64,000 nt of DNA. Origin: Cucumis sativus. Its lineage: Eukaryota > Streptophyta > Magnoliopsida > Cucurbitales > Cucurbitaceae. Made by a program: the position numbers and the translations under genes. Below are positions 42,971 to 64,000 of the stretch, in pieces (the stretch's first letter is position 1; the number at the start of each line of letters is the position of its first letter). A model generated the notes under the pieces. The model saw only the letters and a program-made list of their open reading frames with translations. It was not told where the DNA came from and made no database searches. The stretch is from assembly GCF_000004075.3 (NCBI RefSeq), contig NC_026661.2, positions 13,110,307-13,174,306 of the forward strand, given 5' to 3'.

Positions 42971-43395
42971 TAAAAAACTTGCAGTCTCATCCCATACATT
43001 AAGCCAATCCTTATCCTTATATTCTTAATTTTTTCCAATTTATCAACTCTTCAACCAATATTGTACTCTTCATAAAAAATTATCTTATCCTTTCTAATCT
43101 TCGTCGTGAAATAGATAACTATCAACCCTAATTTGTCTTTTTCTTCCTCCAATATATCGTCCATAGCCTTATAAGTACCTTTACTCTCCCATTTCTTAGC
43201 TTCACATCCAATTATCTACAATTTAATGCAAAGAACGACTTGGTGTCTTCCATAAAAAAAAAAAAAATCAAAGATATAATAGAAAAGTAAACATTTATAA
43301 GATATGAGAAATCTTTATAGAAAATTATATAAAAACTAGGGAGAAGGAAGGCTAACCTTATTTTGAAGAGAAGAGTATAGTAAACTATATATTAC

Positions 43396-43484
43396 CTCAC
43401 TCCCACAATTATTTTGAAGCCATCTTCTAAATACCTTTTAATATGTTTTTTAACATCAAATTTACATCCTCGAGCAAGGTTAAC
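43396..43484 (-). pseudogene. MLO exon b, copy A
   Basis: Read on the minus strand: VNLARGCKFDVKKHIKRY, then LEDGFKIIVGV. It matches the MLO-family cytosolic-loop pattern HLaP...FdF.kYIkRsLEdDFK.VVGIS. The acceptor is ctttag and the donor gtaata. In copy A a Pro of the LAPG phrase is changed to Arg. MLO proteins are seven-span membrane proteins, several of which condition powdery mildew susceptibility. Only two exons of the gene are present, so it is a fragment. Confidence 0.8.
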
Positions 43485-43563
43485 CTAAAGATAAAGAGCA
43501 CCATCATAAAAGGAACAAATAACTGGTTTATGATCAGTAGATAGTTGGAAATTGGAAACTCAC

Positions 43564-43638
43564 CTCGATGAATCCATGACATAATGCCAAGTAGTCAGCC
43601 TTGCCAACGAACTTGAAAAATTGTCGAAAGAAGCACCG
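43564..43638 (-). pseudogene. MLO exon a, copy A
   Basis: Twenty-five codons reading CFFRQFFKFVGKADYLALCH then GFIE, in phase 0 with exon b. The pattern FFRQF...V.K.DY..LR.GFI is diagnostic of MLO proteins. It is flanked by tttcag acceptor and gtgagt donor. The exons before and after in a full MLO gene are absent. Confidence 0.85.
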
Positions 43639-44347
43639 CTGAAACGAAACAACATACTTTAGGTGTTTCAAATCTCTATAGGAAATCGATTGTAAGTATT
43701 ATAAGTTTGAACCAAACAATATCCATATCTCCATATTCTTCAAAACCATTTTTATTCTCAAATATGCTGCATAATATGTATAGTAGTGTGCTATGTATGT
43801 TGCAGTTTTTTACTATGCACATGCAATTTCATGTTTTTCATTAATGTAATCGTCAATTTTTCCCACACAATTTACAGTATGAGCTCTTATGTTGAGGTGA
43901 GAAATATGTGATGCAAGTGTTGAAAGAGTCGTCTGTGTCACATTAGTTAATTCTACTTGATGATGATCTCTTTACATTCAGGATCTTGTTTACTAACTCA
44001 TTTTTTATTATTATATTTTAGTTTATTTTAAACTGCAAGTGATAAAATCATAATAAAACATCATAGCTGTAAGAGTTGATGCATCTGGAGCGACAAAACG
44101 GTTCAGTTTGGAGGTTAGGAACCTTCACCTTACATCCAAAGATGAAAACTTGAAAAAAGAAGGTGAAGAAATAATCCAGCTTTGATAAAGGGAGAACTTC
44201 GCTTCATGTCTGTGTGTGGAAAATAAGAGAAGAGAAGAGAGAAAATTTCAAAAAATTTCTTAAACAGAAAGGTTAAGTACCAATTTCTACTTAGAGTGAA
44301 AAAGATCATCAATTTTCTCCTTTTTGTTTTTTTTTTTTTTTTCTCAC

Positions 44348-44601
44348 CTTATTAGTTCCCAAGAGAATTCATATGCAACTATGATATTTCGCACGGTACG
44401 CATAACAATGGCAGCAGATCTAGCATCAATACCAGAAGTTGGTTCGTCCATGAAGATAGTCGACGGATTAGCAACCAACTCCACTGCTATTGTCAATCTC
44501 TTCCTTTGTTCTGTTGAAAGACCATCAATTCCTGGTAGCCCCACTAAAGCATCTCTCAATTTATCTAGTTCTATTAGTTCCGTAACTTCTTCCACAAACA
44601 T
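44348..44601 (-). pseudogene. PDR/ABCG transporter NBD2 exon (Walker B), copy A
   Basis: Reading [35 protein letters not shown] (signature region), then [15 protein letters not shown] (Walker B and D-loop; Ile for the usual Leu). After VMRTVRN the frame reads [13 protein letters not shown] instead of the expected segment that leads to the H-loop His (family phrase TVVCTIHQPS), so the catalytic domain is cut off. It is part of a PDR-type full-size ABCG pump gene on the minus strand. Confidence 0.88.
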
Positions 44602-44695
44602 CTACATCAATGTAGAATAGCTATTCAATAAAACTTCAACCATATTCTACATTAACTGGAAGCATAAAGCAGCAAGCATTTCTAGTGGGAAATAC

Positions 44696-45028
44696 CTTTC
44701 TTGTTTTGGTATCAACATTGGAGGAAAGGCGGAGCCAAGTAGAAAATAGGAGCGACTCACAGACAGTGACATGAGGCGAATGAATGTCAATTTGTTCACA
44801 GTAACCACTTACTCTAGCAAAGGTTGATTGCTTCTTGGGATAAGTAGAGATGTATATACTTCCTTCAATATAACCACTGGTCTTTCGTCCAGCTAATACA
44901 TCCAAGAGAGTAGTTTTCCCAGCCCCACTAACACCCACAAGAGCTGTTAATATCCCTGGTCGAAAAGGTCCGCTAACATCTTCTAAAAGTCGAAGACGAT
45001 CTTTCTCGACCCCATGCATCTTCATTTC
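44696..45028 (-). pseudogene. PDR/ABCG transporter NBD2 exon (Walker A), copy A
   Basis: Reading [20 protein letters not shown], then [16 protein letters not shown] (intact Walker A), [17 protein letters not shown] and [16 protein letters not shown]. Splice sites are aatttag and gtattt. This copy is intact over 333 bases. In PDR pumps this domain binds ATP for export of hydrophobic compounds at the plasma membrane. Confidence 0.9.
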
Positions 45029-45182
45029 CTAAATTAATTGGAAAACATTGATATAGTTTCAGTGCCTTCAAAACGACATTCATTAAAAAAATAAAAATTA
45101 CAGCCTATTTAGAATGGCTTTCTAAGTGCAAACACCCAGAAAGCAAATCCAAATAGGTTATTTCAAACTTGAGTTAACTTAC

Positions 45183-45271
45183 AGCAGGCATATCCACATA
45201 ATAGTTCACATGGTTGAATGCAAGTGAAAGTGGCTGGAAAGGCAAAATCATTCCTCTTCTTTGCAATTGAT
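45183..45271 (-). pseudogene. PDR/ABCG linker exon, copy A
   Basis: Reading [19 protein letters not shown], then [11 protein letters not shown], the conserved stretch just before the second nucleotide-binding domain of PDR pumps. Acceptor tttag, donor gtaagt. Eighty-nine bases, identical in length to copies B and C. Confidence 0.88.
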
Positions 45272-45409
45272 CTAAATAAAGATTTGACAATTTTGATCGT
45301 TAGCCTATGATTTTTCTCTAATAAATATCAAAGCTCTAATTAAATGAAATATTACTAGAAATCCAAAAGAATTTGGATTAAGCAAATTCTTCCTTACGAA
45401 ACTTAAACC

Positions 45410-45500
45410 TTGTGCATTGACCGTATTATTTTTTCTTTTCTTCTTGTCTTCATCCGTGGTAATGAGAGCCTTTGCATCAGCAAGTGCTGAAAATAGCTTC
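45410..45500 (-). pseudogene. PDR/ABCG charged linker exon, copy A
   Basis: Reading ADAKALITTDEDKKKRKNN then TVNAQG in an open frame of 80 codons (45305-45547). It is the variable charged linker between the membrane part and the second ATP-binding domain. The exon boundaries are approximate; the poly-Ile/Val start of the frame is likely intron. Confidence 0.6.
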
Positions 45501-45606
45501 AAAAGGTTCAGTACAGTTACGACAATGATAATGACAATAATCATCATTACTTAAATGGTCAATTCAATTTATATTCTTGAATAAATGAAGGGTTGAGATG
45601 ACTTAC

Positions 45607-45769
45607 GATTCAAGTAAGTCAAAGCTATTGTAAATAGAACGTTGAAAAGAAGGTTAAAGCCAAAAAGTGCTGCAACGCAAATCCAGTACCAACGTTCTTC
45701 CTTAAAGAAACCCCTACTAGCAAGCACTTTCTCAACTGTAGGTTCATTAATTCTACTATATGTATTTTT
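45607..45769 (-). pseudogene. PDR/ABCG transmembrane exon, copy A
   Basis: Reading NTYSRINEPTVEKVLASRGF, then ERWYWICVAALFGFN and LFTIALTYLN: the conserved VLxxRGxFxxxxWYWIGVGALxGxxxLFN stretch of plant PDR pumps. It is intact here and in copy B; copy C has a stop in it. Confidence 0.88.
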
Positions 45770-45871
45770 CTGCATTAGGCAAAATATGCTTTTATAATGA
45801 AAAAAATAACAAATGACTAAATGTAATATTAGTTTTCAATTTATCCAAATCATTATTGAATTGAGATTTAC

Positions 45872-45975
45872 CTTGCTCCATCTATCATCTAGGAACTCAT
45901 TGATGACAATGGCGTTTTGTCCATACATCATGGGAGACAAATAGAAGCCCCAAATCATCCATCGCTCAACATTAT
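45872..45975 (-). pseudogene. PDR/ABCG exon (NVERWMIWGFY), copy A
   Basis: Reading NVERWMIWGFYLSPMMYG, then QNAIVINEFLDDRWSK, a conserved membrane-proximal segment of PDR proteins. It is 104 bases with ttag acceptor and gtaaat donor. Confidence 0.88.
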
Positions 45976-46389
45976 CTAATGTGCACAAAAGGAAAACCAA
46001 AAGTTGGCAAACAAAAATACTGGAATCTACTAAAGTAACATGCTCAAGAGTTAAAATTTGTGTTCTGGAATAAACAAATAAAGAAAACAAAAAAAAAAAA
46101 AAAAAAAACAATAGAGCGTTGGCACACATCTATGTGTTATATCTACGAACAAACGGAGAGGACAATTTTATCAGAGAGAAAATTCAAAATACATATCAAT
46201 TATCAAATGCACCACTCAAGGGTAAAGAGTTTTATAGTGCATTTCTTTAGACTCTAAGGTCAGAATTATAAATAATGTAAAATTAGAAAATACAAATTTA
46301 AAAGCAAGACTCTATACTTGGTTGTTCCATGCGTCAGATTTCAGATGCAAGACATTCCAACGATAAGGAAAGGGAGAACAATCACTTAC

Positions 46390-46554
46390 CTCTGTCAATA
46401 AGGAAACCTCCAAGCAATAAAACTATTAAAAGAACAAAGGTTCCCAAAGTACTTGTCACATACAACTAGCATTCTTCCAGTTGCAGCCACGAGTCGAAAT
46501 AGCGATAGAGCTGTTTGATAAGTGGCAAAGAAGGCCAAAAATTGCTTGAAGAAC
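46390..46554 (-). pseudogene. PDR/ABCG transmembrane exon with frameshift, copy A
   Basis: Reading FFKQFLAFFATYQTALSLFR and VAATGRMLVV, then out of frame; the continuation TSTLGTFVLLIVLLLGGFLI is found only after skipping four extra bases near 46460. The four-base insertion breaks the gene. This exon has no counterpart in copies B and C within the window. Confidence 0.75.
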
Positions 46555-46634
46555 CTAGAGTATGAATAGACAGGTAATTAAGTAAAGCTTGTTTTTGTTA
46601 ACAAATGAAAAAGAAGGAAAGGAAATATATATAC

Positions 46635-47541
46635 CTACTAAGAGCAGGAGCAAACCCGATCGTGTAATAAGTTAGAAGAGTCCATATTGCTGATTCTATG
46701 AAAGAGAGGAATTCTGAGGATAAACATAGGCAAACTGAATGCCCAAGCAGGATAGAACAAGAAATCCCTCTGTCTAAAGAACACTGGAAACCTGAAAATA
46801 GTGAGGGCCAATTCTGCTATTCCATTAAACATGACATTTATGAGACTGAAAAACAAGGCTCCAAGGAACTTGCTTCCACCAATGACAGTGCCCACTTTCA
46901 TTTCAGTCCTAAAAAACACAGTCATAGCAATGACAGACATGATGGTGATCTGGACCGTTTTAAAAACATAGACAAATGAATGTCGTTTCATTATCAGTAC
47001 TTCTCTTGAATAGCATGCCCTGAATAGCTCCCAGTTTGATAAACCATATTTCTCTTTGACTAATGCAGCTGGGTGAGCTTTAGATTTGTCATAAGGAACT
47101 TGGAGATCAGAGGTAAGTTGTTGACCAATGGTAAAAGATTTGAATGCGACAAAACTTGGAAACATAAATGAATCTATATGGTTTGTTTTTTTTGAACCAG
47201 TATTGTTCTTGGTCCTCCTTTGATGTCACTTCTTGTAAGAAATCAGCAACTCCTTTCCACTCCTTTCCTTTCTGGGCATCGAAACCCCATAAATTTAAAG
47301 AAGTCAAAGATTTTTTCTCTTGGACCTTGGTACACGATTTGACCTTCGGAAAGAAGAATGATATCATCAAATAGATTAAAAGTTTCAGGAGCTGGTTGTA
47401 GAAGAAAAATGACCATTGTTACATCCATTATATGAACCATTTGCCTCATGAACTTCCATATCTGAAATGTGGTAGAACTGTCTAAGCCTGTTGATATTTC
47501 ATCCATAAAAAAAGCCTTTGCTGGTCCTACTAGCATCTCCC
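46635..47541 (-). pseudogene. PDR/ABCG NBD1 end and first transmembrane segment, copy A
   Basis: Starting after a tgcag acceptor at 47542, the minus strand reads [20 protein letters not shown] (Walker B and D-loop of NBD1), [20 protein letters not shown], then after a duplicated ggaaaggagt (near 47256) shifts frame to [19 protein letters not shown] later frame gives [38 protein letters not shown] and FVYVFKTVQITIMSVIAMTV. A two-base deletion near 46694 (CTCTTTC for CTCTCTTTC) shifts the end of the segment. The NBD1 Walker A and the N-terminus are missing: the array begins directly beyond the exon. At least three lesions show it is non-functional. Confidence 0.85.
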
Positions 47542-50500
47542 CTGCACAAGTACCTTCACTCTCCCATTTCTTAGCTTCACTACCAATAATCTAAAATCCA
47601 ATGCAAAGAACAACTTGAGGACTTCCGTAAGAAACCTATAGTCCCATCTCATACTTTAAACCAATCTCTATTCTTGTACTCTAAATTTTTTCAAATTTCT
47701 CATATCTTCAACAAATTTTGAACTATTCAATCTTAGATCGAGTTATCTTCGGTCACTCTTAATTTGTTCATTTCCAAACTCTTCAACCAAATTTATACTC
47801 TTCAACCTCAAACCTTAATCCAAATCTTGAAGTCCAATCTACACCCTTAAATCAAATTTCTCTAATCTTTAGTCTCTTTTAATTTGTTCATTTTTCGAAC
47901 TCTTCAACTTTCAACCTTAATGAAAAAAAATGTTGAAGTCAAATCAAATACTTTAATCCACAATTCTCTTGTCCTTTCTTATCTTCGTCTTTATCATGAA
48001 ATAGATAACTATCAACTAATGAATTTTTCGTTTTCCTCGTTCAATATATCGTCCATGAGTCATATAAGTACCTTCACTCTCCCATTTCTTAGCTTCACTA
48101 CCCATAATTTACAATTTAATGCAAAGAACAGCTTGGGCAGTTCCGTACAAAACTTGTAGTCCCATCTATTACTTTAAACCATTAGCTATTTTTGTAATCT
48201 AAATTTTTTCCAATTTCTCATATCTTCAACCAATTTTGAACTTTTCAACATTATCGAGTTATCTCAAGTGACTCTTAATTTGTTCATTTTCAAACTCTTC
48301 AACCAAATTTATACTCTTCAACCTCAAACCTTAATCCAAATCTTGAAGTCCAATCTCCACACTTAAATCAAATTTCTCTTATCTTTAGTCTCTCTAAATT
48401 TGTTCATTTTTTAACTCTTCAACGTCCAACCTTGATAAAAAAAAAAAAAAAGTTGAAGTCCAATCAAATGCTTTTAACCACAATTCTCTTATCATTTCTT
48501 ATCCTCATCGTGAAATAGAGAACTATCAACAACTCATTTGTCCTTCCCTCTTTCAATATAAAGTCCATGAGTCATATAAGTACCTTCACTCTCCAATTTC
48601 TAAGTTTCACATCCAATAAGCTACAATTTAATTGCAAAAAACAACTTGAGGACTTCCATAAAAAAACATGTAGTCTCATCTCGTACTTTAAACCATTCTC
48701 TATTCTTGTACTATTAATATTTTTTCAACTTATCAACTCTTCAAACAATTTTGTACACCTCAACCTCAAACCAACTTATCTCAAGTGACTCTTAATTTAT
48801 TCATTTCCAAACTCTTCAACCTCAAACCTTAATCCAAATCTTGAAGTCCAATTTCCATCTTTAAATCAAATTTCTCTAATATTTAGTCTCTTAATTTGTT
48901 CATTTCTTGAACTCTTCAAACGTCCAACCTTAATAAAAAATAAAAAAAGTTGAAATCCAATCACATACTTTAATCCAAAATTCTCTTCTCCTTTCTATCT
49001 TCATCCTAAAATAGATAACTTTCAACAACTAATTTGTAATTTTTCTCTTCCAATATATAGTCCATGAGCCTTACTCTCTCACTCCTTAGCTTTATTACAA
49101 TTGAATGCAAAGTACGACTTGGTGTCTTCCATTAAAAACTTGTAGTCCCATCTCATACTTTAAACCAATATGTATTCTTGTACTCTAAATTTTTTCCAAT
49201 TTCACTTATCTTCAACCAATTTTGAACTTTTCAACCTTAGATCGAGTTATCTTAAGCGACTCTTGATTTGTTCATTTCCAAACTCTTCAACCTCAAACCT
49301 TAAACCAAATCTTGAAGAACAATTTTCATCCTTCATCAAATTGCTCTAGTATTTAGTCTCTTAATTTGTTCATTTCTTGAACTCTTCAAATCAAATACTT
49401 TTATCCACAATTCTCTTATCCTTTTCTTATCTTCGTCTTTATCGTGAAATAGATAACTATCAACAAACTAATTTGTCATTTTCATCATTCAATATATCGT
49501 CCATGGGTCATATAAGTACCTTCACTCTCCCATTTCTTAGCTTCACTACTAATAATCTACAATTTAATGCAAAGAACAGCTTAGGGACTTCCGTAAAAAA
49601 CTTGTAGTCCCATCTCATACTTTAAACCATTATCTATTTTGTACTCTAAATTATTTCAAATTTCTCATATCTTCAACCAATTTTGAACTTTTCACCCATA
49701 GATCGAGTTATCTTAAGTGACTCTTAATTTGTTCATTTCCAAATTCTTCACTCAAATTTATACTCTTCAACCTCAAACCTTAATCCAAATCTGGAAGTCC
49801 AATCTCCAAACTTAAATTAAATTTCTCAAATCTTTAGTCTCTAAATTTGTTCAAAATCTGGAAGTCCAATCTCCACACTTAAATTAAATTTCTCAAATCT
49901 TTAGTCTCTCTAAATTTGTTCATTTTTTAACTCTTCAACGTCCCACCTTGATAAAAAATAAAAAGTTAAAGTCCAATCAAAAGCTTTTAACCACAATTCT
50001 CTTCTCATTTCTTATCGTTATCGTGAAATAGAGAACTATCAACAACTAATTTGTCATTTCCTCTTTCAATATAAAGTCCATGAGTCATACAACAATTTCT
50101 AAGCTTCATATCCAATAAGCTACAATTTAATTGCAAAGAACATCACGAGGACTTCCATAAAAAAACATGTAGTCTCGATCTCATACTTTAAACAATTCTC
50201 TATTATTGTACTATTAATATTTTTTCAATTTATCAACTCTTCAAACAATTTTGTACACCTCAACCTCAAACCAACTTATCTTAAGTGACTCTTAATTTAT
50301 TCATTTAAAAATTCTTCAACCTCAAACCTTAATCAAAATCTTGAAGTCCAATTTCTATAGTATTTAGTCTCTTAATTTGTTCATTTCTTGAACTCTTCAA
50401 ACGTCCAACTTTAATAAAAAAAAAAACTGAAATCCAATCACATACTTTAATCCAAAATTCCCTTATCCTTTCTTATCTTCATCCTAAAATAGATAACTTT

Positions 50501-53090
50501 CAACAACTAATTTGTAATTTTTCTCTTTCAATATATCGTCCATGAGCCTTACTCTCCCATTCCTTAGCTTCACTACAATTTAATGCAAAGTACGACTTGG
50601 TGTCCTCCATTAAAAACTTGTAGTCCCATCTCATACTTTAAACCGATCTTTATTCTTGTATTATTAATATTTTTCCAATTTATCAACTCCTCACACTTAT
50701 TAGTTCATTTCCAAACTCTTCAACCAAATTTATACTCTTCAACCTCCAACCTTAATCCAAATCTTTGAACTCCAATTTCCAACCATAAATCAAATTTCTC
50801 TAATCTTTAGTGTCTTAATTTGTTCATTAACGTTCAACCTTAATCAATGAGTTGTAGTCCCGTCTCATACGTTAAACCAACAATTTATAATCTTGTGTAT
50901 CTCGTATCTCTTAGGACGTGTTTGGGGTGGACTTGAGGGGAGTAGAGTGGAGTATTTAAGCCCACTCCACGTTTGGGGCATAGATCAAGCAAAAGGGGAT
51001 TAGGGTTATTTTACTCCTCGTCACACACTGTTCCACTCTCTCAACCGGGTGTAACTCGAGACCACCATTAATTTTGTTTTCTCATATTCGATCTCGACCG
51101 AGATCGACCCCAAAATATCTTCCCAAATTTAAATAACTCTTTGAAGAAAATTTCTCGATCTCCCTCAAAGACATCTCTGGCAACCTTAGACCGAGATCAT
51201 ACTAATTAGTCGACGTTCTTTAGCTCGGGACAACTTAGACCCAGGATCATACTACATTATGCATATGTTCTTTAGCTCGTGGCTATCTCAGGCCGAAGCC
51301 CCGAGCTAAAGAAGATCATAAAGTAATGTAGTACGATTTCGGGCCAAAGTTGGCCTGAGATATAGCCCCGAGCTAAAGAACATAAGGAAATGTAGTATGA
51401 TCTCGAGCAAAAGTAGGCCCGAAATAGCCCCAAGAGAGACCAAGAAATTTCCGTCAAATAGTTTTATAATTTTGGAAAGAATCTCGAGGTCAATCTTGCC
51501 CGAGTTCGACCACGAGAAAAACAAAATTTTCAGTTGTCCTAAGATGCACTCGATCGAAGGAATGAGACAGTGTGCGGCAAGGAGTGGAACACAAAATAAG
51601 GGGGTAAAATAGCACTAATCCCCCTTTTGCTTAATTCATGCCCCAAACGTGGAGTGGGCTTAAATACTCCACTCTACTCCCCACGAATGCATACTATTAT
51701 AAAATCCATACTATTATAAGTCACTTCTCGCCCCAAACGCCCCCATAATTTTTCCAATTTATGAGCTCTTCAACCAATTTTGTACTTTGGTGTAATCCAA
51801 ATATTGATTAGGTCCCTTGAATTCAAATGTTGAAGTCCAATCTCCAACCTTAAACCAAATTATTTGAAGTGACTCGTAATTTGTTCAATTTTCGAACTCA
51901 TCAACCAATTTTATACTTTTCGACCTTCAACCTTAATCCAAATCTTGAAGTATCTCCAACCTCAAATCAAATTTCTCTAATCTTCAATGTCTATTAATTT
52001 GTTAATTTTTTGAACTCTTCAATCGAACATCAACGACCGATCCTCTTTAATCAAAAAGTTGAAGTCAAATCACATTCTTTAATCCAAAATTTCCTTATCT
52101 TTATTTATTTGCCTTCATCATGAAATAAATAACTACCAACAAATTTTTGTTTTCCCATTTTCAAAATATAATCTCAAACATATTATGTTCCAAACACAAT
52201 TACTTAAAAGTCAATTTTATTCACTTCCCATCCAACAATCACCACCTTCATCCAAACAATGACATGTTGCCTTTCATTCCTTCATCCAAACAATGACATG
52301 TTGCCTTTCATACAAAAAGTTGTATTCCAATCTCATACTTCAAACCTAATTTTACCAACTTATGAACTCTCCAACCAATATTGTACTTTGTATACCAAAG
52401 TTTGGCTAGCCCCCTTAAATCCAAATGTCCAAGTCCATTCTCCAACCTTAAACAAAAATTCCTTCAACTTTTTGCCAAAATTACTTTATCCTTTGTATCT
52501 TGTAATTTGCAAATTTTCTAAACTCTTCTACTAAACAGTTCCTTTTAATTCAAATAATGGTTGGACCACTGCCATCAAATAGCATAAATAAAAGCGCATA
52601 CTTTAATCTAAAATTCTCTTATCCTTACTTATCTATATCTTCATCGTGAAATGGATAACTATCAACGACTAATTTGTCTTTTTCCTCTTTCAATATATCG
52701 TCCATGAGTCCTATATATACCTTTACTCTCCTATTTCTTAGCTTCACGTCATATTATCTACAATTTAATGCAAAGAACGGTTTGGTATCTTTCATAAAAA
52801 ACTTGCAGTCTCATCCCATACATTAAGCCAATCCTTATTCTTATATTCTTAATATTTTCCAATTTATCAACTCTTCAACCAATATTGTACTCTTCATAAA
52901 AAATTATCTTATCCTTTCTAATTTTCGTCGTGAAGTAGATAACTATCAACCCTAATTTGTCTTTTTCCTCTTCCAATATATCGTCCGTAGTCTTATAAGT
53001 ACCTTTACTCTCCCATTTCTTAGCTTCACATCCAGTTATCTACAATTTATTGCAAAGACTGACTTGGTGTCTTCCATAAAAAAAAAAAAA
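47542..53090 (-). repeat. Degenerate tandem array, left arm (about 480-bp unit)
   Basis: The block agtaccttcactctcccatt / cttagcttcac / caatttaatgcaaagaac / gacttccgtaa / cttgtagtcccatctc / tcaaccaattttgaac / cttaatccaaatcttgaagtcc / atcgtgaaatagataactatcaac / tcaatatatcgtccatgagt returns about every 450-520 bases, with starts near 47550, 48070, 48580, 49065, 49515, 50545, 52720 and 52995. Copies vary by substitution and deletion. It begins exactly next to the NBD1 exon, in what is intron of the PDR gene, and no protein-coding sense is seen. It is interrupted at about 50915-51745 by an inserted element. Confidence 0.85.
50915..51748. mobile_element. Foldback element of about 830 bp in the left-arm array
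   Basis: The element opens gtttggggtggacttgaggg / gagtagagtggagtatttaa and closes with the near-complement (ctccactctactccccacgaa ... gccccaaacgccccc), so its ends are long imperfect inverted repeats containing ccactccacgtttggggc. The interior carries smaller inverted pieces (gagctaaagaacat ... atgtagtatgatct and their complements). No transposase frame is credible. A clean target duplication could not be fixed, and the superfamily (PIF/Harbinger, hAT or MULE-like) is undecided. Related copies lie in the right arm at 60166 and 61557. Confidence 0.7.
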
Positions 53091-53220
53091 ACTCAAAGAT
53101 ATAATAGAAAAGTAAACATTTATAAGATATGAGAAATGTTTATAGAAAATTATATAAAAACTAGGGAGAAGGAAGGCTAACCTTATTTTGAAGAGAAGAG
53201 TATAGTAAACTATATATTAC

Positions 53221-53309
53221 CTCACTCCCACAATTATTTTGAAGCCATCTTCTAAATACCTTTAAATATGCTTCTTAACATCAAATTTACATCCTGGAGC
53301 AAGGATAAC
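53221..53309 (-). pseudogene. MLO exon b, copy B
   Basis: The minus strand reads VILAPGCKFDVKKHIK followed by the same C-terminal phrase as copy A. The Pro of LAPG is kept, and the second residue is Ile instead of Asn. Exon length 89 bases. Confidence 0.8.
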
Positions 53310-53388
53310 CTAAAGATAAAGAGCACTATCATAAAAGGAACAAATAACTGGTTTATGATCAGTAGATAGTTGGAAATTGGAAACTCAC

Positions 53389-53463
53389 CTCGATGAATCC
53401 ATTACATAATGCCAAGTAGTCAGCCTTGCCAACGAAATTGAAAAATTGTCGAAAGAAGCACCG
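53389..53463 (-). pseudogene. MLO exon a, copy B
   Basis: Seventy-five bases encoding the MLO pattern CFFRQFFNFVGKADYLAL then CNGFIE, in phase with exon b. The splice sites match copy A (tttcag and gtgagt). Confidence 0.83.
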
Positions 53464-54159
53464 CTGAAACGAAACAACATACTTTAGGTGTTTCAAATCT
53501 CTATAGGAAATCGATTGTAAGTATTATAAGTTTGAACCAAACAATATCCATATCTCCATATTCTTCAAAACCATTTTTATTCTCAAATATGCTGCATAAT
53601 ATGTATAGTAGTGTGCGATGTATGTTGCAGTTTTTTAGTATGCACATGCAATTTCATGTTTTTCATTAATGTAATCGTCAATTTTTCCCACACAATTTAC
53701 AGTATGAGCTCTTATGTTGAGGTGAGAAATATGTGATGCAAGTGTTGAAAGAGTGGTCTGTGTCACATTAGTTAATTCTACTTGATGAAGATCTCTTTAT
53801 ATTCAGAATCTTGTTTATTAACTTATTTTTTAGTTTATTTTAAACTGCAAGTGATAAAATCATAATAAAACATCATAGCTGTAAGAGTTGATGCATTTGG
53901 AGCGACAAAACGGTTCAGTTTGGAGGTTAGGAACCTTCACCTTACACCCAAAGATGAAAACTTGAAAAAAGAAGGTGAAGAAATAATCCAGCTTTGATAA
54001 AGGGAGAACTTCGCTTCATGTCTGTGTGTGGAAAATAAGAGAAGAGAAGAGAAAAAATTTCAAAACTTTTCTCAAACAGAAAGGTTAAGTACCAATTTCT
54101 CATCAAAATAAACTTAGAGTGAAAAAGATCATCAATTTTCTCCTTTTTTTTTTTCTCAC

Positions 54160-54413
54160 CTTGTTAGTTCCCAAGAGAATTCATATGCAACTATGATATT
54201 TCTCATGGTACGCATAACAATGGCAGCAGATCTAGCATCAAGACCAGAAGTTGGTTCGTCCATTAAGATAGTCGACGGATTAGCAACCAACTCCACTGCT
54301 ATTTTCAATCTCTTCCTTTGTTCTGTTGAAAGACCATCAATTCCTGGTAGCCCCACTAAAGCATCTCTCAATTTATCTAGTTCTATTAGTTCCGTAACTT
54401 CTTCCACAAACAT
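54160..54413 (-). pseudogene. PDR/ABCG NBD2 exon (Walker B), copy B
   Basis: Same as copy A with [14 protein letters not shown] (usual Leu kept) and changes STILMDE and RMKIAVEL-type (KRLKIAVEL). The same non-PDR tail ([14 protein letters not shown]) replaces the H-loop region, so the truncation predates the duplication of A and B. Confidence 0.86.
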
Positions 54414-54507
54414 CTACATCAATGTAGAATAGCTATTCAATAAAACTTCAATCATATTCTGCATTAACTGGAAGCATAAAGCAGCAAGCGTTTCTAGTGG
54501 GAAATAC

Positions 54508-54840
54508 CTTTCTTGTTTTGGTATCAACATTGGAGGAAAGGCGGAGCCAAGTAGAAAGTATGAGCGACTCACAGACAGTGACATGAGGCGAATGAATGTC
54601 AATTTGTTCACAGTAAGCACTTACTCTAGCAAAGGTTGATTGCTTCTTGGGATAAGCAGAGATGTATATACTTCCTTCAATGTAACCACTGGTCTTTCGT
54701 CCAGCTAATACATCCAAGAGAGTAGTTTTCCCAGACCCACTAACACCCACAAGAGCTGTTAATATCCCTGGTCGAAAAGGTCCGCTAACATCTTCTAAAA
54801 GTCGAAGATGATGTTTCTCGACCCCATGCATCTTCATTTC
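54508..54840 (-). pseudogene. PDR/ABCG NBD2 exon (Walker A), copy B
   Basis: Three hundred and thirty-three bases with intact Walker [17 protein letters not shown], and [20 protein letters not shown]. It differs from copy A by a handful of substitutions. Confidence 0.88.
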
Positions 54841-54993
54841 CTAAATTAATTGGAAAACATTGATATAGTTTCAGTGCCTTCAAAACGACATTCATTAAAA
54901 AATAAAAATTACAGCCTATTTAGAATGGCTTTCTAAGTGCAAACACCCAGAAAGCAAATGCAAATAGGTTATTTCAAACTTGAGTTAACTTAC

Positions 54994-55082
54994 AGCAGGC
55001 ATATCCACATAATAGTTCACATGGTTGAATGCAAGTGAAAGTGGCTGGAAAGGCAAAATCATTCCTCTTCTTTGCAGTTGAT
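54994..55082 (-). pseudogene. PDR/ABCG linker exon, copy B
   Basis: Same 89-base exon as in copy A ([18 protein letters not shown] then NYYVDMPA). The charged linker exon that precedes it in the gene lies at about 55221-55311 within an 80-codon open frame (55116-55358). Confidence 0.85.
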
Positions 55083-55417
55083 CTAAATAAAGATTTGACA
55101 ATTTTGATCGTTAGCCTATGATTTTTCTCTAATAAATATCAAAGCTCTAATTAAAGGAAAGATTACTAGAAATCCAAAAGAATTTGGATTAAGCAAATTC
55201 TTCCTTACGAAACTTAAACCTTGTGCATTGACCGTATTATTTTTTCTTTTCTTCTTGTCTTCATCCGTGGTAATGAGAGCCTTTGCATCAGCAAGTGCTG
55301 AAAATAGCTTCAAAAGGTTCAGTACAGTTACGACAATGATAATGACAATAATCATCATTACTTAAATGGTCAATTCAATTTATATTCTTGAATAAATGAA
55401 GGGTTGAGATGACTTAC

Positions 55418-55580
55418 GATTCAAGTAAGTCAAAGCTATTGTAAATAGAACGTTGAAAAGAAGGTTAAAGCCAAAAAGTGCTGCAACGCAAATCCAATAC
55501 CAACGTTCTTCCTTAAAGAAACCCCTACTAGCAAGCACTTTCCCAACTGTAGGTTCATTAATTCTACTATCTGTATTTTT
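55418..55580 (-). pseudogene. PDR/ABCG transmembrane exon, copy B
   Basis: Reading NTDSRINEPTVGKVLASRGF, then WYWICVAALFGFN. Intact 163-base exon, splice sites as in copy A. Confidence 0.87.
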
Positions 55581-55682
55581 CTGCATTAGGCAAAATATGC
55601 TTTTATAATGAAAAAAATAACAAATGACTAAATTTAATATTAGTTTTCAATTTATCCAAATCATTATTGAGTTGAGATTTAC

Positions 55683-55786
55683 CTTGCTCCATCTATCATC
55701 TAGGAGCTCATTGATGACAATGGTGTTTTGTCCATACATCATGGGAGACAAATAGAAGCCCCAAATCATCCATCGCTCAACATTAT
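55683..55786 (-). pseudogene. PDR/ABCG exon (NVERWMIWGFY), copy B
   Basis: Reading NVERWMIWGFYLSPMMYG, then QNTIVINELLDDRWSK (104 bases). It is the last exon before the palindrome centre; the exons further upstream in the gene (46390-47541 in unit A) are missing from unit B. Confidence 0.87.
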
Positions 55787-55906
55787 CTAATGTGCACAAA
55801 AGGAAAACCAAAAGTTGGCAAACAAAAATACTGGAATCTACTAAAGTAACATGCTCAAGAGTTAAAATTTGTGTTCTGGAATCAACAAATAAAGAAAAAA
55901 AGAAAA

Positions 55907-55993
55907 CAATAGAGCGTTGGCACACATCTATGCGTTGGCACACATCCCTTTGTTCGTAGATATAACACATAGATGTGTGCCAACGCTCTATTG
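55907..55993. repeat. Apex of the large inverted repeat
   Basis: Bases 55907-55932 (caatagagcgttggcacaca then tctatg) pair perfectly with 55968-55993 over 26 positions. The loop of about 35 bases holds a second copy of gcgttggcacacatc (55932-55946), which also stands at 55914-55928. Beyond the stem both arms continue into the PDR exons in mirror order. Comparison with unit A at 46115-46160 shows the uninterrupted ancestral order, so the apex is a rearrangement joint. Confidence 0.9.
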
Positions 55994-56114
55994 TTTTTTT
56001 TTTTTTCTTTATTTGTTGATTCCAGAACACAAATTTTAACTCTTGAGCATGTTACTTTAGTAGATTCCAGTATTTTTGTTTGCCAACTTTTGGTTTTCCT
56101 TTTGTGCACATTAG

Positions 56115-56218
56115 ATAATGTTGAGCGATGGATGATTTGGGGCTTCTATTTGTCTCCCTTGATGTATGGACAAAACACCATTGTCATCAATGATTTCCTA
56201 GATGATAGATGGAGCAAG
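56115..56218 (+). pseudogene. PDR/ABCG exon (NVERWMIWGFY), copy C
   Basis: Plus-strand mirror of 55683-55786, reading NVERWMIWGFYLSPLMYG then QNTIVINDFLDDRWSK. Length 104 bases, ttag acceptor, gtaaat donor. It differs by a few bases from copy B. Confidence 0.87.
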
Positions 56219-56321
56219 GTAAATCTCAACTCAATAATGATTTGGATAAATTGAAAACTAATATTAAATTTAGTCATTTGTTATTTTTTTCATTTATAAA
56301 AGCATATTTTGCCTAATGCAG

Positions 56322-56484
56322 AAAAATACAGATAGTAGAATTAATGAACCTACAGTTGGGAAAGTGCTTGCTAGTAGGGGTTTCTTTAAGGAAGAACGTT
56401 GGTACTGAATTTGCGTTCCAGCACTTTTTGGCTTTAACCTTCTTTTCAACGTTCTATTTACAATAGCTTTGACTTACTTGAATC
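56322..56484 (+). pseudogene. PDR/ABCG transmembrane exon with stop, copy C
   Basis: Mirror of 55418-55580, but the conserved WYWI codon for the second Trp reads TGA (56406-56408), giving ERWY then stop. The rest (VPALFGFNLLFN) is recognisable. This change is absent from copies A and B, so it arose after the inverted duplication. Confidence 0.88.
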
Positions 56485-56599
56485 GTAAGTCATCTCAACG
56501 CTTCATTTATTCAAGAATATAAATTGAATTGACCATTTAAGTAATGATGATTATTGTCATTATCATTGTCGTAACTGTACTGAACCTTTTGAAGCTATT

Positions 56600-56690
56600 T
56601 TCAGCACTTGTTGATGCAAAGGCTCTCATTACCACGGATGAAGACAAGAAGAAAAGAAAAAATAATACGGTCAATGCACAAGGTTTAAGT
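56600..56690 (+). pseudogene. PDR/ABCG charged linker exon, copy C
   Basis: Mirror of the linker in copies A and B, reading VDAKALITTDEDKKKRKNN then TVNAQG; one Ala is changed to Val at the start. The exon boundaries are approximate. Confidence 0.6.
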
Positions 56691-56820
56691 TTCGTAAGGA
56701 AGAATTTGCTTAATCCAAATTCTTTTGGATTTCTAGTAATCTTTCCTTTAATTAGAGCTTTGATATTTATTAGAGAAAAATTCATAGGCTAACGATCAAA
56801 ATTGTCAAATCTTTATTTAG

Positions 56821-56909
56821 ATCAACTGCAAAGAAGAGGAATGATTTTGCCTTTCCAGCCACTTTCACTTGCATTCAACCATGTGAACTATTATGTGGAT
56901 ATGCCTGCT
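56821..56909 (+). pseudogene. PDR/ABCG linker exon, copy C
   Basis: Mirror of 54994-55082: 89 bases encoding [16 protein letters not shown] then [11 protein letters not shown]. Acceptor tttag, donor gtaagt. Confidence 0.85.
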
Positions 56910-57063
56910 GTAAGTTAACTCAAGTTTGAAATAACCTATTTGGATTTGCTTTCTGGGTGTTTGCACTTAGAAAGCCATTCTAAATAGGCTGTAATTTTTT
57001 ATTTTTTAATGAATGTCGTTTTGAAGGCACTGAAACTATATCAATGTTTTCCAATTAATTTAG

Positions 57064-57392
57064 GAAATGAAGATGCATGGGGTCGAGAAAGATCGTCTTC
57101 GACTTTTAGAAGATGTTAGCGGACCTTTTCGACCAGGGATATTAACAGCTCTTGTGGGTGTTAGTGGGGCTTGGAAAACTACTCTCTTGGATGTATTAGC
57201 TGGACGAAAGACCAGTGGTTATAAGGAAGTATATACATCTCTGCTTATGCCAAGAAGCAATCAACCTTTGCTAGAGTAAGTGGTTACTGTGAACAAACTG
57301 ACATTCATTCGCCTCATGTCACTGTCTGTGAGTCGCTCCTATTTTCTACTTGGCTCCGCCTTTCCTCCAATGTTGATACCAAAACAAGAAAG
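57064..57392 (+). pseudogene. PDR/ABCG NBD2 exon (Walker A), copy C, broken
   Basis: At 329 bases it is four shorter than A and B. The loss of attg near 57225 (after the codons for TSGY) shifts the frame and leads to a stop at 57277-57279. In addition the Walker A motif reads GVSGAWKTT, with Trp in place of the invariant Gly before Lys, which would abolish ATP binding. The two lesions are unique to copy C. Confidence 0.9.
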
Positions 57393-57486
57393 GTATTTCC
57401 CACTAGAAACGCTTGCTGCTTTATGCTTCCAGTTAATGCAGAATATGATTGAAGTTTTATTGAATAGCTATTCTACATTGATGTAG

Positions 57487-57740
57487 ATGTTTGTGGAAGA
57501 AGTTATGGAACTAATAAAACTAGATAAACTGAGAGATGCTTTAATGGGGCTACCAGGAATTGATGGTCTTTCAACAGAACAAAGGAAGAGATTGAAAATA
57601 GCAGTGGAGTTGGTTGCTAATCCGTCGACTATCTTCATGGACGAACCAACTTCTGGTCTTGATGCTAGATCTGCTGCCATTGTTATGCGTACCGTGCGAA
57701 ATATCATAGTTGCATATGAATTCTCTTGGGAACTAATAAG
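57487..57740 (+). pseudogene. PDR/ABCG NBD2 exon (Walker B), copy C
   Basis: Mirror of 54160-54413, 254 bases, with [14 protein letters not shown] kept and the same abnormal tail [14 protein letters not shown]. Small differences from A and B (for example [16 protein letters not shown]). Confidence 0.86.
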
Positions 57741-58444
57741 GTGAGAAAAAAAAAACAAAAAGGAGAAAATTGATGATCTTTTTCACTCTAAGTAGAAATT
57801 GGTACTTAACCTTTCTGTTTAAGAATTTTTTTGAAATTTTCTCTCTTCTCTTCTCTTATTTTGCACACACAGACATGAAGCGAAGTTCTCCCTTTATCAA
57901 AGCTGGATTATTTCTTCACCTTCTTTTTTCAAGTTTTCATCTTTGGGTGTAAGGTGAAGGTTCCTAACCTCCAAACTGAACCGTTTTGTCGCTCCAGATG
58001 CATCAACTCTTACAGCTATGATGTTTTATTTATGATTTTATCACTTGCAGTTTAAAAATAAACTAAAATATAATAATAAAAATGAGTTAGTAAACAAGAT
58101 CTTGAATGTAAAGAGATCATCATCAAGTAGAATTAACTAATGTGACACAGACGACTCTTTCAACACTTGCATCACATATTTCTCACCTCAACATAAGAGC
58201 TCATACTGTAAATTGTGTGGGAAAAATTGACGACTACATTAATGAAAAACATGAAATTGCATGTGCATAGTAAAAAACTGCAACATACGTAGCACACTCC
58301 TGTACATATTATGCTGCATATTTGAGAATAAAAAAGGTTTTGAAGAATATGGAGATATGGATATTGTGTGGTTCAAACTTATAATACTTACAATCGATTT
58401 CCTATAGAGATTTGAAACACCTAATGTATGTTGTTTCGTTTCAG

Positions 58445-58519
58445 CGGTGCTTCTTTCGACAATTTTTCAAGTTCGTTGGCAAGGCTGACTACTTGGCATT
58501 ATGTAATGGATTCATCGAG
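58445..58519 (+). pseudogene. MLO exon a, copy C
   Basis: Seventy-five bases, CFFRQFFKFVGKADYLAL then CNGFIE; the MLO motif is fully kept. Acceptor tttcag, donor gtgagt. Confidence 0.84.
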
Positions 58520-58598
58520 GTGAGTTTCCAATTTCCAACTATCTAGTGATCATAAACCAATTATTTGTTCCTTTTATGATAGTGCTCTTTATCTTTAG

Positions 58599-58687
58599 GT
58601 TAACCTTGCTCCAGGATGTAAATTTGATGTTAAAAAACATATTAAAAGGTATTTAGAAGATGGCTTCAAAATAATTGTGGGAGTGAG
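58599..58687 (+). pseudogene. MLO exon b, copy C
   Basis: Eighty-nine bases reading VNLAPGCKFDVKKHIKRY then LEDGFKIIVGV; this copy keeps both the Asn and Pro that differ in B and A, so it looks closest to the ancestral fragment. The donor is gtaata. Confidence 0.82.
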
Positions 58688-60165
58688 GTAATATATAGTT
58701 TACTATACTCTTCTCTTCAAAATAAGGTTAGCCTTCCTTCTCCCTAGTTTTTATATAATTTTCTATAAACATTTCTCATATCTTATAAATGTTTACTTTT
58801 CTATTATATCTTTGAGTTTTTTTTTTTTTTATGGAAGACACCAAGTCAGTCTTTGCAATAAATTGTAGATAACTGGATGTGAAGCTAAGAAATGGGAGAG
58901 TAAAGGTACTTATAAGACTACGGACGATATATTGGAAGAGGAAAAAGACAAATTAGGGTTGATAGTTATCTACTTCACGACGAAAATTAGAAAAGGATAA
59001 GATAATTTTTTATGAAGAGTACAATATTGGTTGAAAGAGTTGATAAATTGGAAAATATTAAGAATATAAGAATAAGGATTGGCTTAATGTATGGGATGAG
59101 ACTGCAAGTTTTTTATGAAAGATACCAAACCGTTCTTTGCATTAAATTGTAGATAATATGACGTGAAAGCTAAGAAATAGGAGAGTAAAGGTATATATAG
59201 GACTCATGGACGATATATTGAAAGAGGAAAAAGACAAATTAGTCGTTGATAGTTATCCATTTCACGATGAAGATATAGATAAGTAAGGATAAGAGAATTT
59301 TGGATTAAAGTATGCGCTTTTATTTATGCTATTTGATGGCAGTGGTCCAACCATTATTTGAATTAAAAAGGAACTGTTTAGTAGAAGAGTTTAGAAAATT
59401 TGCAAATTACAAGATACAAAGGATAAAGTAATTTTGGCAAAAAGTTGAAGGAATTTTTGTTTAAGGTTGGAGAATGGACTTGGACATTTGGATTTAAGGG
59501 GGCTAGCCAAACTTTGGTATACAAAGTACAATATTGGTTGGAGAGTTCATAAGTTGGTAAAATTATGTTTGAAATATGAGATTGGAATACAACTTTTTTA
59601 ATGAAAGGTAACATGTCATTGTTTGGATGAAGGAGTGAAAGACAACATGTCATTGTTTGGATGAAGGTGGTGATTGTTGGATGGGAAGTGAATAAAATTG
59701 ACTTTTAAGTAATTGTGTTTGGAACATAATATGTTAGAGACTATATTTTGAAAATGGGAAAACAAAAGTTTGTTGGTAGTTAATTATTTCACGATGAAGG
59801 CAAATAAATAAAGATAAGGAAATTTTGGATTAAAGAATGTGATTTGACTTCAACTTTTTGATTAAAGAGGATCGGTCGTTAATGTTCGATTGAAGAGTTC
59901 GAAAAATAAACAAATTAAGAGACGCTAAAGATTAGAGAAATTTGATTTGAGGTTGGAGATACTTCAAGATTTGGATTAAGGTTGAAGGTCGAAAAGTATA
60001 AAATTGGTTGATGACTTCGAAAATTGAACAAATTACGAGTCACTTCAAATAATTTGGTTTAAGGTTGGAGATTGGACTTCAACATTTGAATTCAAGGGAC
60101 CTAATCAATATTTGGATTACACCAAAGTACAAAATTGGTTCAAGAGCTCATAAATTGGAAAAATT

Positions 60166-60998
60166 ATGGGGCGTTTGGGGCGAGAAAGTGACTTATAATA
60201 GTATGGATTTTATAATAGTATGCATTCGTGGGGAGTAGAGTGGAGTATTTAAGCCCACTCCACGTTTGGGGCATGAATTAAACAAAAGGGGGATTAGTGC
60301 TATTTTACCCCCTTATTTTGTGTTCCACTCCTTGCCGCACACTGTCTCATTCCTTGGATCGAGTGCATCTTAGGACAACTGAAAATTTTGTTTTTCTCGT
60401 GGTCGAACTCGGGCGAGATTGACCTCGAGATTCTTTCCAAAATTATAAAACTATTTGACGGAAATTTCTTGGTCTCTCTTGGGGCTATTTCGGGCCTACT
60501 TTTGCTCGAGATCATACTACATTTCCTTATGTTCTTTAGCTCGGGGCTATATCTCAGGCCAACTTTGGCCCGAAATCGTACTACATTACTTTATCTTCTT
60601 TAGCTCGGGGCTTCGGCCTGAGATAACCACGAGCTAAAGAACATATGCGTAATGTAGTATGATCCTGGGTCAAAGTTGTCCCGAGCTAAAGAACGTAGAC
60701 TAATTAGTATGATCTTGGTCTAAGGTTGCCAGAGATGTCTTTGAGGGAGATCGAGAAATTTTCTTCAAAGAGTTATTTAAATTTGGGAAGATATTTTGGG
60801 GTCGATCTCGGTCGAGATCGAATATGAGAAAACAAAATTAATGGTGGTCTAGAGTTACACCCGGTTGAGAGAGCGGAACAGTGTGTGGCAGGGAGTAAAA
60901 TAACCCTAATCCCCCTTTTGCTTGATCCATGCCCCAAACGTGGAGTGAGCTAAAATAGTCCATTCTACTCCCCTCAAGTCCACCCCAAACACACCCTA
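60166..60998. mobile_element. Foldback element, right-arm copy 1
   Basis: Mirror of the element at 50915-51748: begins ggggcgtttggggcgagaaa and includes ttataatagtatgg repeats and ggggagtagagtggagtatt, ending ctcccctcaagtccacccca. Inner inverted pieces as in the left-arm copy. Confidence 0.72.
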
Positions 60999-61556
60999 AG
61001 AGATACGAGATACACAAGATTATAAATTATTGGTTTAACGTATGAGATGAGACTACAACTTTTTGATTAAGGTTGAACGTTAATGAACAAATTAAGAGAC
61101 ACTAAAGATTAGAGAAATTTGAATTATGGGTGAAAATTGGAGTTCAAGATTTGGATTAAGGTTGGATCGGTCGTTGATGTTCGATTGAAGAGTTCGAAAA
61201 ATAAACAAATTAAGAGACACTGAAGATTAGAGAAATTTGATTTGAGGTTGGAGATACTTCAAGACTTGGATTAAAGTTGAAGGTCGAAGAGTTCGAAAAA
61301 TAAACAAATTAAGAGACCATGAAGATTAGAGAAATTTGATTTGAGGTTGGAGATACTTCAAGATTTGGATTAAGGTTGAAGGTCGAAGAGTATAAAATTG
61401 GTTGATGAGTTCGAAAATTGAACAAATTACGAGTCACTTCAAATAATTTGGTTTAAGGTTGGAGATTGGATTTCAACATTTGAATTCAAGGGACCTAAAC
61501 AATATTTGGATTACACCAAAGTACAAAATTGGTTGAAGAGCTCATAAATTGGAAAA

Positions 61557-62346
61557 ATTATGGGGGCGTTTGGGGCGAGAAGAGTGGAGTATTTAAGCCC
61601 ACTCCACGTTTGGGGCATGAATTAAGCAAAAGGGGGATTAGTGCTATTTTACCCCCTTATTTTGTGTTCCATTCCTTGCCGCACACTGTCTCATTCCTTC
61701 GATCGAGTGAATCTTAGGACAACTGAAAATTTTGTTTTTCTTGTGGTCGAACTCGGGCGAGATCGAGCTCAAGATTCTTTCCAAAATTATAAAACTATTT
61801 AACGGAAATTTCTTGGTCTCTCTTGGGCTTATTTCGGGCCTACTTTTGCTCGAGATCATACTACATTTTCTTATGTTCTTTAGCTCGGGGCTATATCTCA
61901 GGCCAACTTTGACCCGAAATCATACTACATTACTTTATCTTCTTTAGCTCGGGGCTTCGGCCTGAGATTGCCTGGAGCTAAATAACATATGCATAATGTA
62001 GTATGATCCTGGGTTAAAGTTGTCCCGAGCTAAAGAACATTGACATTATGTAGTATGATCTCGGTCTAAGGTTGCCAAAGATGTCTTTGAGGGAGATCGA
62101 GAAATTTTCTTCAAAGAGTTATTTAAATTTGGGAAGAGATCTTAGGGTCGATCTCGGTCGAGATTGACTATGAGAAAACAAAATTAATGGTGGTCTCGAG
62201 TTGCACCCGGTTGAGAGAGTGGAGGAACATTGTGTGGCAAAGAGTAAAATAACCCTAATCCCCCTTTTGCTTGATCCATGCCCCAAACGTGGAGTGAGCT
62301 AAAATAGTCCATTCTACTCCCCTCAAGTCCACCCCAAACACGCCCT
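61557..62346. mobile_element. Foldback element, right-arm copy 2
   Basis: Nearly the same element, without the ttataatagtatgg stretch near its left end (ggggcgagaagagtggagta follows directly), which accounts for the roughly 40-base difference in length. It was copied together with its flanks. Confidence 0.72.
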
Positions 62347-63358
62347 AAGAGATACGAGATACACAAGATTATAAATTATTGGTTTAACGTATGAGATGAG
62401 ACTACAACTTTTTGATTAAGGTTGAACGTTAATGAACAAATTAAGAGACACTAAAGATTAGAGAAATTTGAATTATGGGTGAAAATTGGAGTTCAAGATT
62501 TGGATTAAGGTTGGAGGTTGAAGAATATAAATTTGGTTGAAGAGTTTGGAAATGAACTAATTAAGAGCGAGAAGTTGATAAATTGAAAAAATATTAATAA
62601 TACAAGAATAAAGATTGGTTTAAAGTATGAGATCGGACTACAAGTTTTTAATGGAAGACACCAAGTTGTAGTTTGCATTAAATTCTAGTGAAGCTAAGGA
62701 ATGGGAGAGTAAGGCTCATGGACGATATGTTGAAAGAGAAAAATTACAAATTAGTTGTTGAAAGTTATCTATTTTAGGATGAAGATAAGAAAGGAGAAGA
62801 GAATTTTGGATTAAAGTATGTGATTGGATTTCAACTTTTTTTTTTATTAAGGTTGGACGTTTGAAGAGTTCAAGAAAAGAACAAATTAAGAGACTAAATA
62901 TTAGAGAAATTTGATTTAAAGATGGAAATTGGACTTCAAGATTTGGATTAAGGTTTAAGGTTGAAGAGTTTGGAAATGAATAAATTAAGAGTCACTTGAG
63001 ATAAGTTGGTTTGAGGTTGAGGTGTACAAAATTGTTTGAAGAGTTGATAAGTTGAAAAAATATTAATAGTACAAGAATAGAGAATGGTTTAAAGTACGAG
63101 ATGAGACTACATGTTTTTTTTTTGAAATGAACAAATTAAGAGTGACCGAAGATAACTCGATCTAAGATTGAATAGTTCAAAATTGGTTGTAGATATGAGA
63201 AATTGGAAAAAATTTAAAGTACAAGAATAGAGATTGGTTTAAAGTATGAGATGGGACTATAGGTTTCTTACGGAAGTCCTCAAGTTGTTCTTTGCATTGG
63301 ATTTTAGATTATTGGTAGTGAAGCTAAGAAATGGGAGAGTGAAGGTACTTATGTGTAG

Positions 63359-64000
63359 GGGAGATGCTAGTAGGACCAGCAAAGGCTTTTTTTATGGATG
63401 ATATATCAACAGGCTTAGACAGTTCTACCACATTTCAGATATGGAAGTTCATGAGGCAAATGGTTCATATATTGGATGTAACAATGGTCATTTCTCTTCT
63501 ACAACCAGCTCCTGAAACTTTTAATCTATTTGATGATATCATTCTTCTTTCCGAAGGTCAAATCGTGTACCAAGGTCCAAGAGAAAAAATCCTTGACTTC
63601 TTCAAATTTATGGGGTTTCGATGCCCAGAAAGGAAAGGAGTGGAAAGGAGTTGCTGATTTCTTACAAGAAGTGACATCAAAGGAGGACCAAGAACAATAC
63701 TGGTTCAAAAAAAACAAACCATATAGATTCATTTCTGTTTCCAAGTTTTGTCGCATTTAAATCTTTTACTATTGATCAACAACTTACCTTTGATCTCCAG
63801 GTTCCTTATGACAAATCTAAAGCTCACTCAGCTGCATTAGTCAAAGAGAAATATGGTTTATCAAACTGGGAGCTATTCAGGGCATGCTATTCAAGAGAAG
63901 TACTGATAATGAAACGACATTCATTTGTCTATGTTTTTAAAACGGTCCAGATCACCATCATGTCCGTTATTGCTATGACTGTGTTTTTTAGGACTGAAAT
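63359..64000 (+). pseudogene. PDR/ABCG NBD1 end, copy D (runs off window)
   Basis: Plus-strand mirror of 46900-47541: [20 protein letters not shown] (Asp in place of the usual catalytic Glu after Walker B Asp), [20 protein letters not shown], then the same ggaaaggagt duplication and frame shift as in copy A, followed by [18 protein letters not shown] and later VPYDKSKAHSAALVKEK, LSNWELFRACYSREVLIMKR. Sharing the duplication lesion with A shows the lesion preceded the inversion. The rest of the unit lies beyond the window. Confidence 0.87.

Follow-up and report, generated by a model that had tools for sequence, protein, structure and literature searches.

We have characterized an imperfect palindrome of about 20.3 kb in the cucumber genome (45308 to 65581, from comparison of the window with its flanks), where the window is the whole stretch of 64,000 nucleotides that was analysed (C7:13110307-13174306 of a 226.6-Mb genome in 88 contigs) and coordinates count from its first letter. 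This palindrome is very probably a fold-back inverted duplication, a reading drawn from an apex that has a single-copy loop, a 14-nt templated insertion and microhomologies of 1-2 bp. Characteristic of such duplications, inverted copies surround a single-copy spacer, both arms appear to come from one parent segment, and the junction carries a templated insertion and microhomology, the latter read by eye.

Self-comparison of the window gave one inverted match, and adding the flanks takes the symmetry out to 45308 and 65581. The match lies at 50745-61166 and is 96.8% identical over 10,475 columns including gaps (self-BLAST); the inner arms paired in this way differ by 110 substitutions at 5,172 aligned sites (97.9% identity). 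Beyond an uneven repeat array, the outer pairing of 45308 with 65581 has 97.5% identity and ends about 1.6 kb outside the window. The initial annotation had recognised PDR and MLO fragments arranged as a very large, imperfect palindrome, and this is borne out by self-BLAST, Pfam and DNA matches. Its centre, placed near 55950, falls at 55933-55967, and a proposed mirror pair near the centre (55683 with 56218) was verified; coordinates sum to 111900 at the apex (55932+55968) and to 111911 for the whole inverted self-match. The symmetry does reach the window edge, as had been claimed, but does not stop there, and the array and foldback element are indeed present on both arms but differ in copy number. 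Pairing is incomplete, the left array at about 47778-50159 having no single register on the right arm. PDR sequence meets array at the right-arm outer junction (65581) with about 1 bp matching, and the left limit of homology to C3 (42957-42971) is marked by a short A-rich match. The features of the locus are as follows.

42957-46157, plus strand: inner unit (MLO exon, NBD2, PDR_assoc) in a third copy, which is not inverted and holds the uninverted apex site
44385-47548, minus strand: PDR-B fragment from mid NBD1 exon to mid NBD2 exon, corresponding to C3:30673688-30676832
45308-55932, plus strand: left arm of the palindrome, its outer limit being the partner of the junction at 65581
47548-50828, plus strand: diverged array of units of about 500 bp, left arm
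50937-51682, plus strand: TIR (foldback) element, left arm, with inverted ends of about 79 bp
53359-53523, minus strand: MLO exon fragment, left arm
54197-55932, minus strand: inner PDR fragment, left arm (TMD1 end, PDR_assoc and NBD2 pieces)
55933-55946, plus strand: 14-nt templated insertion CGTTGGCACACATC, copied from the stem 18 bp upstream
55947-55967, minus strand: asymmetric single-copy remainder of the loop, native sequence, reversed
55968-64000, minus strand: right arm within the window, running on to window coordinate 65581 (C7:13175887)
55968-57703, plus strand: inner PDR fragment, right arm, with one stop within the PDR_assoc match
60230-60973, minus strand: TIR (foldback) element, right arm, the same element as at 50937-51682
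61082-63350, minus strand: array, right arm, of other copy number and interrupted by the TIR element at 61573-62322
61573-62322, minus strand: TIR element, second copy, confined to the right arm
63350-64000, plus strand: right-arm copy of the PDR-B fragment, running on to 65581 and then truncated

Two further repeats were observed in the region. At 19289-20307 the sequence is duplicated head to tail without a mismatch (509-bp period, 100% identical), which is either a very recent duplication or an assembly stutter. A separate foldback of about 666 bp, 84.5% self-complementary, lies 8.8 kb to the right of the palindrome end (C7:13184648-13185313, window coordinate 74342-75007).

The arms appear to contain gene fragments only, with no sign of function. 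A Pfam profile search of ten frames matched Mlo (PF03094; 35 residues, E 3e-7 and 8e-8) in two frames, ABC_tran in two, one exactly at the cut-off, and PDR_assoc, ABC2_membrane and ABC2_membrane_7 in one each. Left-arm frames carry PDR domains (PF00005, PF08370, PF01061 and PF19055) and the MLO exon; on the right arm, PF08370 and PF01061 were located by genome searches and the MLO exon by DNA match (within 58248-58668). The right-arm frame at 55973-56254 has a weak ABC2_membrane match below the cut-off (E 0.014), which we counted because the frame mirrors the left arm. Each right-arm PDR_assoc match contains one stop. No Pfam match was found for the array frame, and the TIR-element frame gave a chance-level match only. 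Another copy of the MLO exon (43534-43698) lies within the third inner unit, which is in tandem with 52795-55936 at an offset of 9824.

The scar at the apex was read against its uninverted homologues, which occur at 46070-46180 in the same window, at C7 64690-64800 and on C3. The sequence at C7 64690-64800 reads ...GTTGGCACACATCTATGTGTTATATCTACGAACAAAGGGAGAGG..., with single-base differences in the other two copies. The left arm ends at the apex with CACATCTATG (55932), followed by CGTTGGCACACATC and then by the reverse strand starting CCTTTGTTCGTAG; a second copy of the 14-nt insert was not found in any of these uninverted homologues. The resulting loop is asymmetric and 35 nt long, and on each arm the mirror point falls no more than 35 nt from one shared native position. 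The 30 bases adjoining the loop are identical on both sides and are paired in the predicted single-strand DNA fold of 55850-56050 (201 nt, -90.5 kcal/mol), a stability reached by 0 of 200 dinucleotide shuffles (z -25). The apex microhomologies, of 2 bp and 1 bp, were read by eye and are too short for significance alone. The native site also has a hairpin with a 6-bp stem, but of a kind that is frequent in the window (269 examples, 4.2 per kb). By comparison with the uninverted homologues, the footprint of a fold-back template switch is the most likely interpretation of the apex.

Under this proposal, a 3' end that had broken or stalled within a PDR fragment would have formed a fold-back of about 30-35 nt and used the 2-bp match to prime synthesis on its own strand. 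After copying 14 nt it would have slipped back by 18 bp and resumed, and synthesis would have run on for some 10 kb or more until the end was joined at another place. We infer this mechanism from the apex scar. The PDR/MLO units would already have been tandem, and already pseudogenes, before the fold-back, giving a putative order of interchromosomal copy, decay, tandem duplication and fold-back, after which the array and TIR parts may have drifted by unequal exchange.

The earlier steps of this order concern the relationship with C3. Comparison of C7:13070307-13224306 with C3:30580001-30720000 matched C7 42957-72587 (window coordinates) to parts of C3 30.626-30.677 Mb; among the matches listed there was one other between C7 and C3, of 536 bp at 75%. 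The C3 cluster has fuller PDR genes in one orientation, with two PDR_assoc and nine ABC2_membrane matches, all on the minus strand, in genome profile searches. By eye, its upstream frames include a Walker-A for both PDR-A and PDR-B and an N-terminal frame for PDR-A. These frames are absent from the C7 copies in the C3 comparison, and because the C7 copies begin within the NBD1 region, C7 would be the derived copy of a C3-type cluster. Read backwards, the right arm and right flank are colinear with C3 as far as PDR-A (67885-72587; 97.7% identical to C3 over the first 2 kb and 84% at the far end), and the left arm has the opposite orientation to the right arm relative to C3.

Two features of the C3 cluster itself were observed. 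The frames of PDR-A (C3:30626390-30634950, minus strand) overlap near 30631709-30631722, as after a frameshift, so that the intactness of this gene is not established by frames; the published cucumber table in PMC10211247 gives, roughly where PDR-A would be expected, two adjacent minus-strand half-size genes, Csa3G751990 and Csa3G752490, of 8.4 kb together, which, by position only, are probably a single PDR-A gene split in annotation. Once a shift of about 1 Mb or more is allowed for, several ABCG genes here match this table in position and strand, as compared by eye. At C3:30649628-30657947 there are about 55 copies, about 99.7% alike, of a 151-bp unit that derives from the PDR NBD2 exon, from the same piece as window 54414-54571, and has no open frame of more than 56 codons on the gene strand.

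A common parent for the two arms is indicated by shared lesions. The outer copies of the exon block at 46600-47548 share three indels relative to C3 PDR-B (one of 10 bp and two of 2 bp), neither outer copy has private indels within the compared PDR-B block, and this block is open in C3 for 314 codons. Because both arms share these disruptive indels and the C3 copy is open, we infer that both came from one already broken parent segment. A site-pattern test on outer left, inner left, inner right and C3 (114 variable gap-free columns) gave 12:2:0 for pairing of the two inner arms, of the two left copies, and of inner right with outer left (p 8e-5, tested against equal chance). Later conversion may account for part of this signal, because 8 of the 12 inner-arm sites fall in one 480-bp cluster (43099-43578) where the inner arms are near-identical; outside it, 4 of 6 sites support the inner arms (p 0.10). 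The four-copy segment has two sites in agreement and one in conflict, and the MLO-NBD2 segment speaks against fold-back, with 98.0% identity between outer left and inner right vs 97.8% between the inner arms.

The module formed by array, TIR element and MLO exon appears older than the palindrome, because the same order and orientation recur in three tandem copies on C6 (C6:23025083-23039016) and on C3 (31.648-31.652 Mb), the individual parts being about 68-89% identical. On C7, PDR fragments flank the module on both sides, giving a tandem unit of 9.8 kb, and the module edge near 54189 is also found on C6. A mobile origin of the module was considered, but no diagnostic ends were established. 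The left arm has one TIR element and the right arm two.

Identity between the arms ranges by segment from 96.5 to 99.0%, compared with 95.0-98.0% between an arm and its closest C3 copy, and is the higher in 4 of 5 compared segments by roughly 1-3 points; in the TIR segment the left arm is 97.8-98.0% identical to C3 vs 96.5% to the right arm. Substitution divergence is 2.1% for the inner arms, 1.9% for the outer arms and 2.7% for outer left vs C3 PDR-B. At plant substitution rates of 5e-9 to 1.5e-8 per site per year, the divergence suggests an age of about 0.6-2.2 million years for the palindrome, which would not be very recent, and of about 0.9-2.8 million years for the C3-C7 split. Differences between the arms are patchy (chi2 57.6, 12 df, p 6e-8), with identity per 400 bp varying from 95 to 100% (0 to 20 differences) and only 2 differences in 800 sites at 52345-53144, next to 400-bp windows with up to 20. 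That the palindrome is recent or under special maintenance, as first proposed, finds no support in that form, given 2.1% substitutions and patchy differences between the arms. Homogenisation of whole arms was set aside as not indicated, on the same patchiness and on identities of 97.9% overall and 96.5-99.0% by segment; since the differences are patchy and include a near-identical stretch, a local arm-to-arm conversion tract is possible, as is divergence brought in close to the arrays. Private changes in 50745-53642 number 54 on the right arm and 18 on the left, an excess suggestive of ectopic exchange between parts of the right arm and array units. No clear excess of methylation-driven C-to-T decay was found among arm-private changes in 50745-53642 (C>T plus G>A in 16 of 54 on the right and 4 of 18 on the left; reverse changes, T>C plus A>G, 14 and 5) or in 54197-55936 (4 of 12 and 3 of 16; reverse changes 2 and 6).

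These patterns bear on the alternatives to a fold-back origin. An assembly artefact, whether a hairpin read due to a missed adapter or a head-to-head join of two paralogous contigs at 55930-55950, is very improbable: paralogues of about 97% identity do exist on C3 and C7, but a hairpin read would give identical arms, whereas 110 of 5,172 sites differ here, plus indels. Each arm has changes private to it relative to C3, the arms have in common lesions absent from C3, and the junction has both the templated insertion and the asymmetric loop. Differences spread over most of the arm length also make a simple assembly flip very unlikely. A functional hairpin locus, whose read-through transcripts would form long double-stranded RNA and small RNAs that silence relatives of PDR or MLO, is likewise very improbable. 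Other plants have endogenous inverted repeats that act in this way, and exact 21-mers from the left-arm PDR parts cover 1,905 positions out of 13,081 in the C3 PDR-B region and 53 out of 8,541 in the PDR-A counterpart, but the PDR fragments point away from the apex (minus on the left, plus on the right), so that sense transcription would not cross it. We consider it very improbable that the palindrome acts as a hairpin or methylation trigger silencing PDR-B on C3; if true, a fold-back repair accident would have become a trans-acting regulator between chromosomes. Two independent, opposite insertions of a C3-type unit, abutting by chance, are very improbable: parts of the units do occur in several places and one left-arm segment resembles C3 more closely than it does the right arm, but the shared disruptive indels, the 12:2:0 grouping of the inner arms (8 of 12 sites clustered) and a mirror point no more than 35 nt from one native position on each arm all argue against them. 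An origin of the whole palindrome as one DNA transposon was rejected, as the left arm is unbroken beyond 45308 and so has no end there, the right arm ends in array sequence at 65581, and the one of 29 matches to a 2-kb apex query that spans the apex is the locus itself.

Judged from its sequence, the cucumber palindrome is a well-resolved new case within a known class, the fold-back inverted duplications; a published description of it was not found among titles in the open-licence literature. To our knowledge, few old fold-back duplications have been resolved to the base. Here, uninverted apex homologues survive kilobases away and on another chromosome, making the junction readable and an order of events proposable. 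The locus also provides a plant test case for the persistence of a palindrome of roughly 20 kb, and the 35-nt loop at its apex is relevant to how palindromes of this kind escape deletion. The likeness to silencing inverted repeats of plants, such as the soybean chalcone synthase cluster, lies in the inverted gene copies; neither transcription nor silencing is indicated for the locus here. Human inverted duplications, as described in PMC3907307, have a single-copy spacer with inverted microhomology of 2-8 bp at 13 of 21 junctions and insertions at 5 of 21, and the cucumber apex resembles them in its single-copy spacer, short inverted microhomology and junction insertion. The human cases described there are of megabase scale and come from patients, whereas the palindrome here is about 20 kb and inherited in the assembly, and their spacers of 766-70,466 bp, set against a loop of 35 nt, count against the fold-back reading. 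In yeast, foldback inversions and short inverted insertions copied from a template, as described in PMC11724301 and PMC7467729, share fold-back or single-strand hairpin priming and very short templated copies but, unlike the palindrome here, come from experimental systems. The willow W palindromes, according to PMC7023750, have four main arms more than 99% alike on average, with reported gene conversion, and, like the cucumber locus, form a large plant palindrome on a segment with genes transposed from other chromosomes, one arm pair being 96-99% alike, as here. The willow palindromes differ in having a 2.6-kb spacer, expressed genes and sex linkage, in contrast to the 35-nt loop, gene fragments and no known sex linkage of the palindrome in cucumber.
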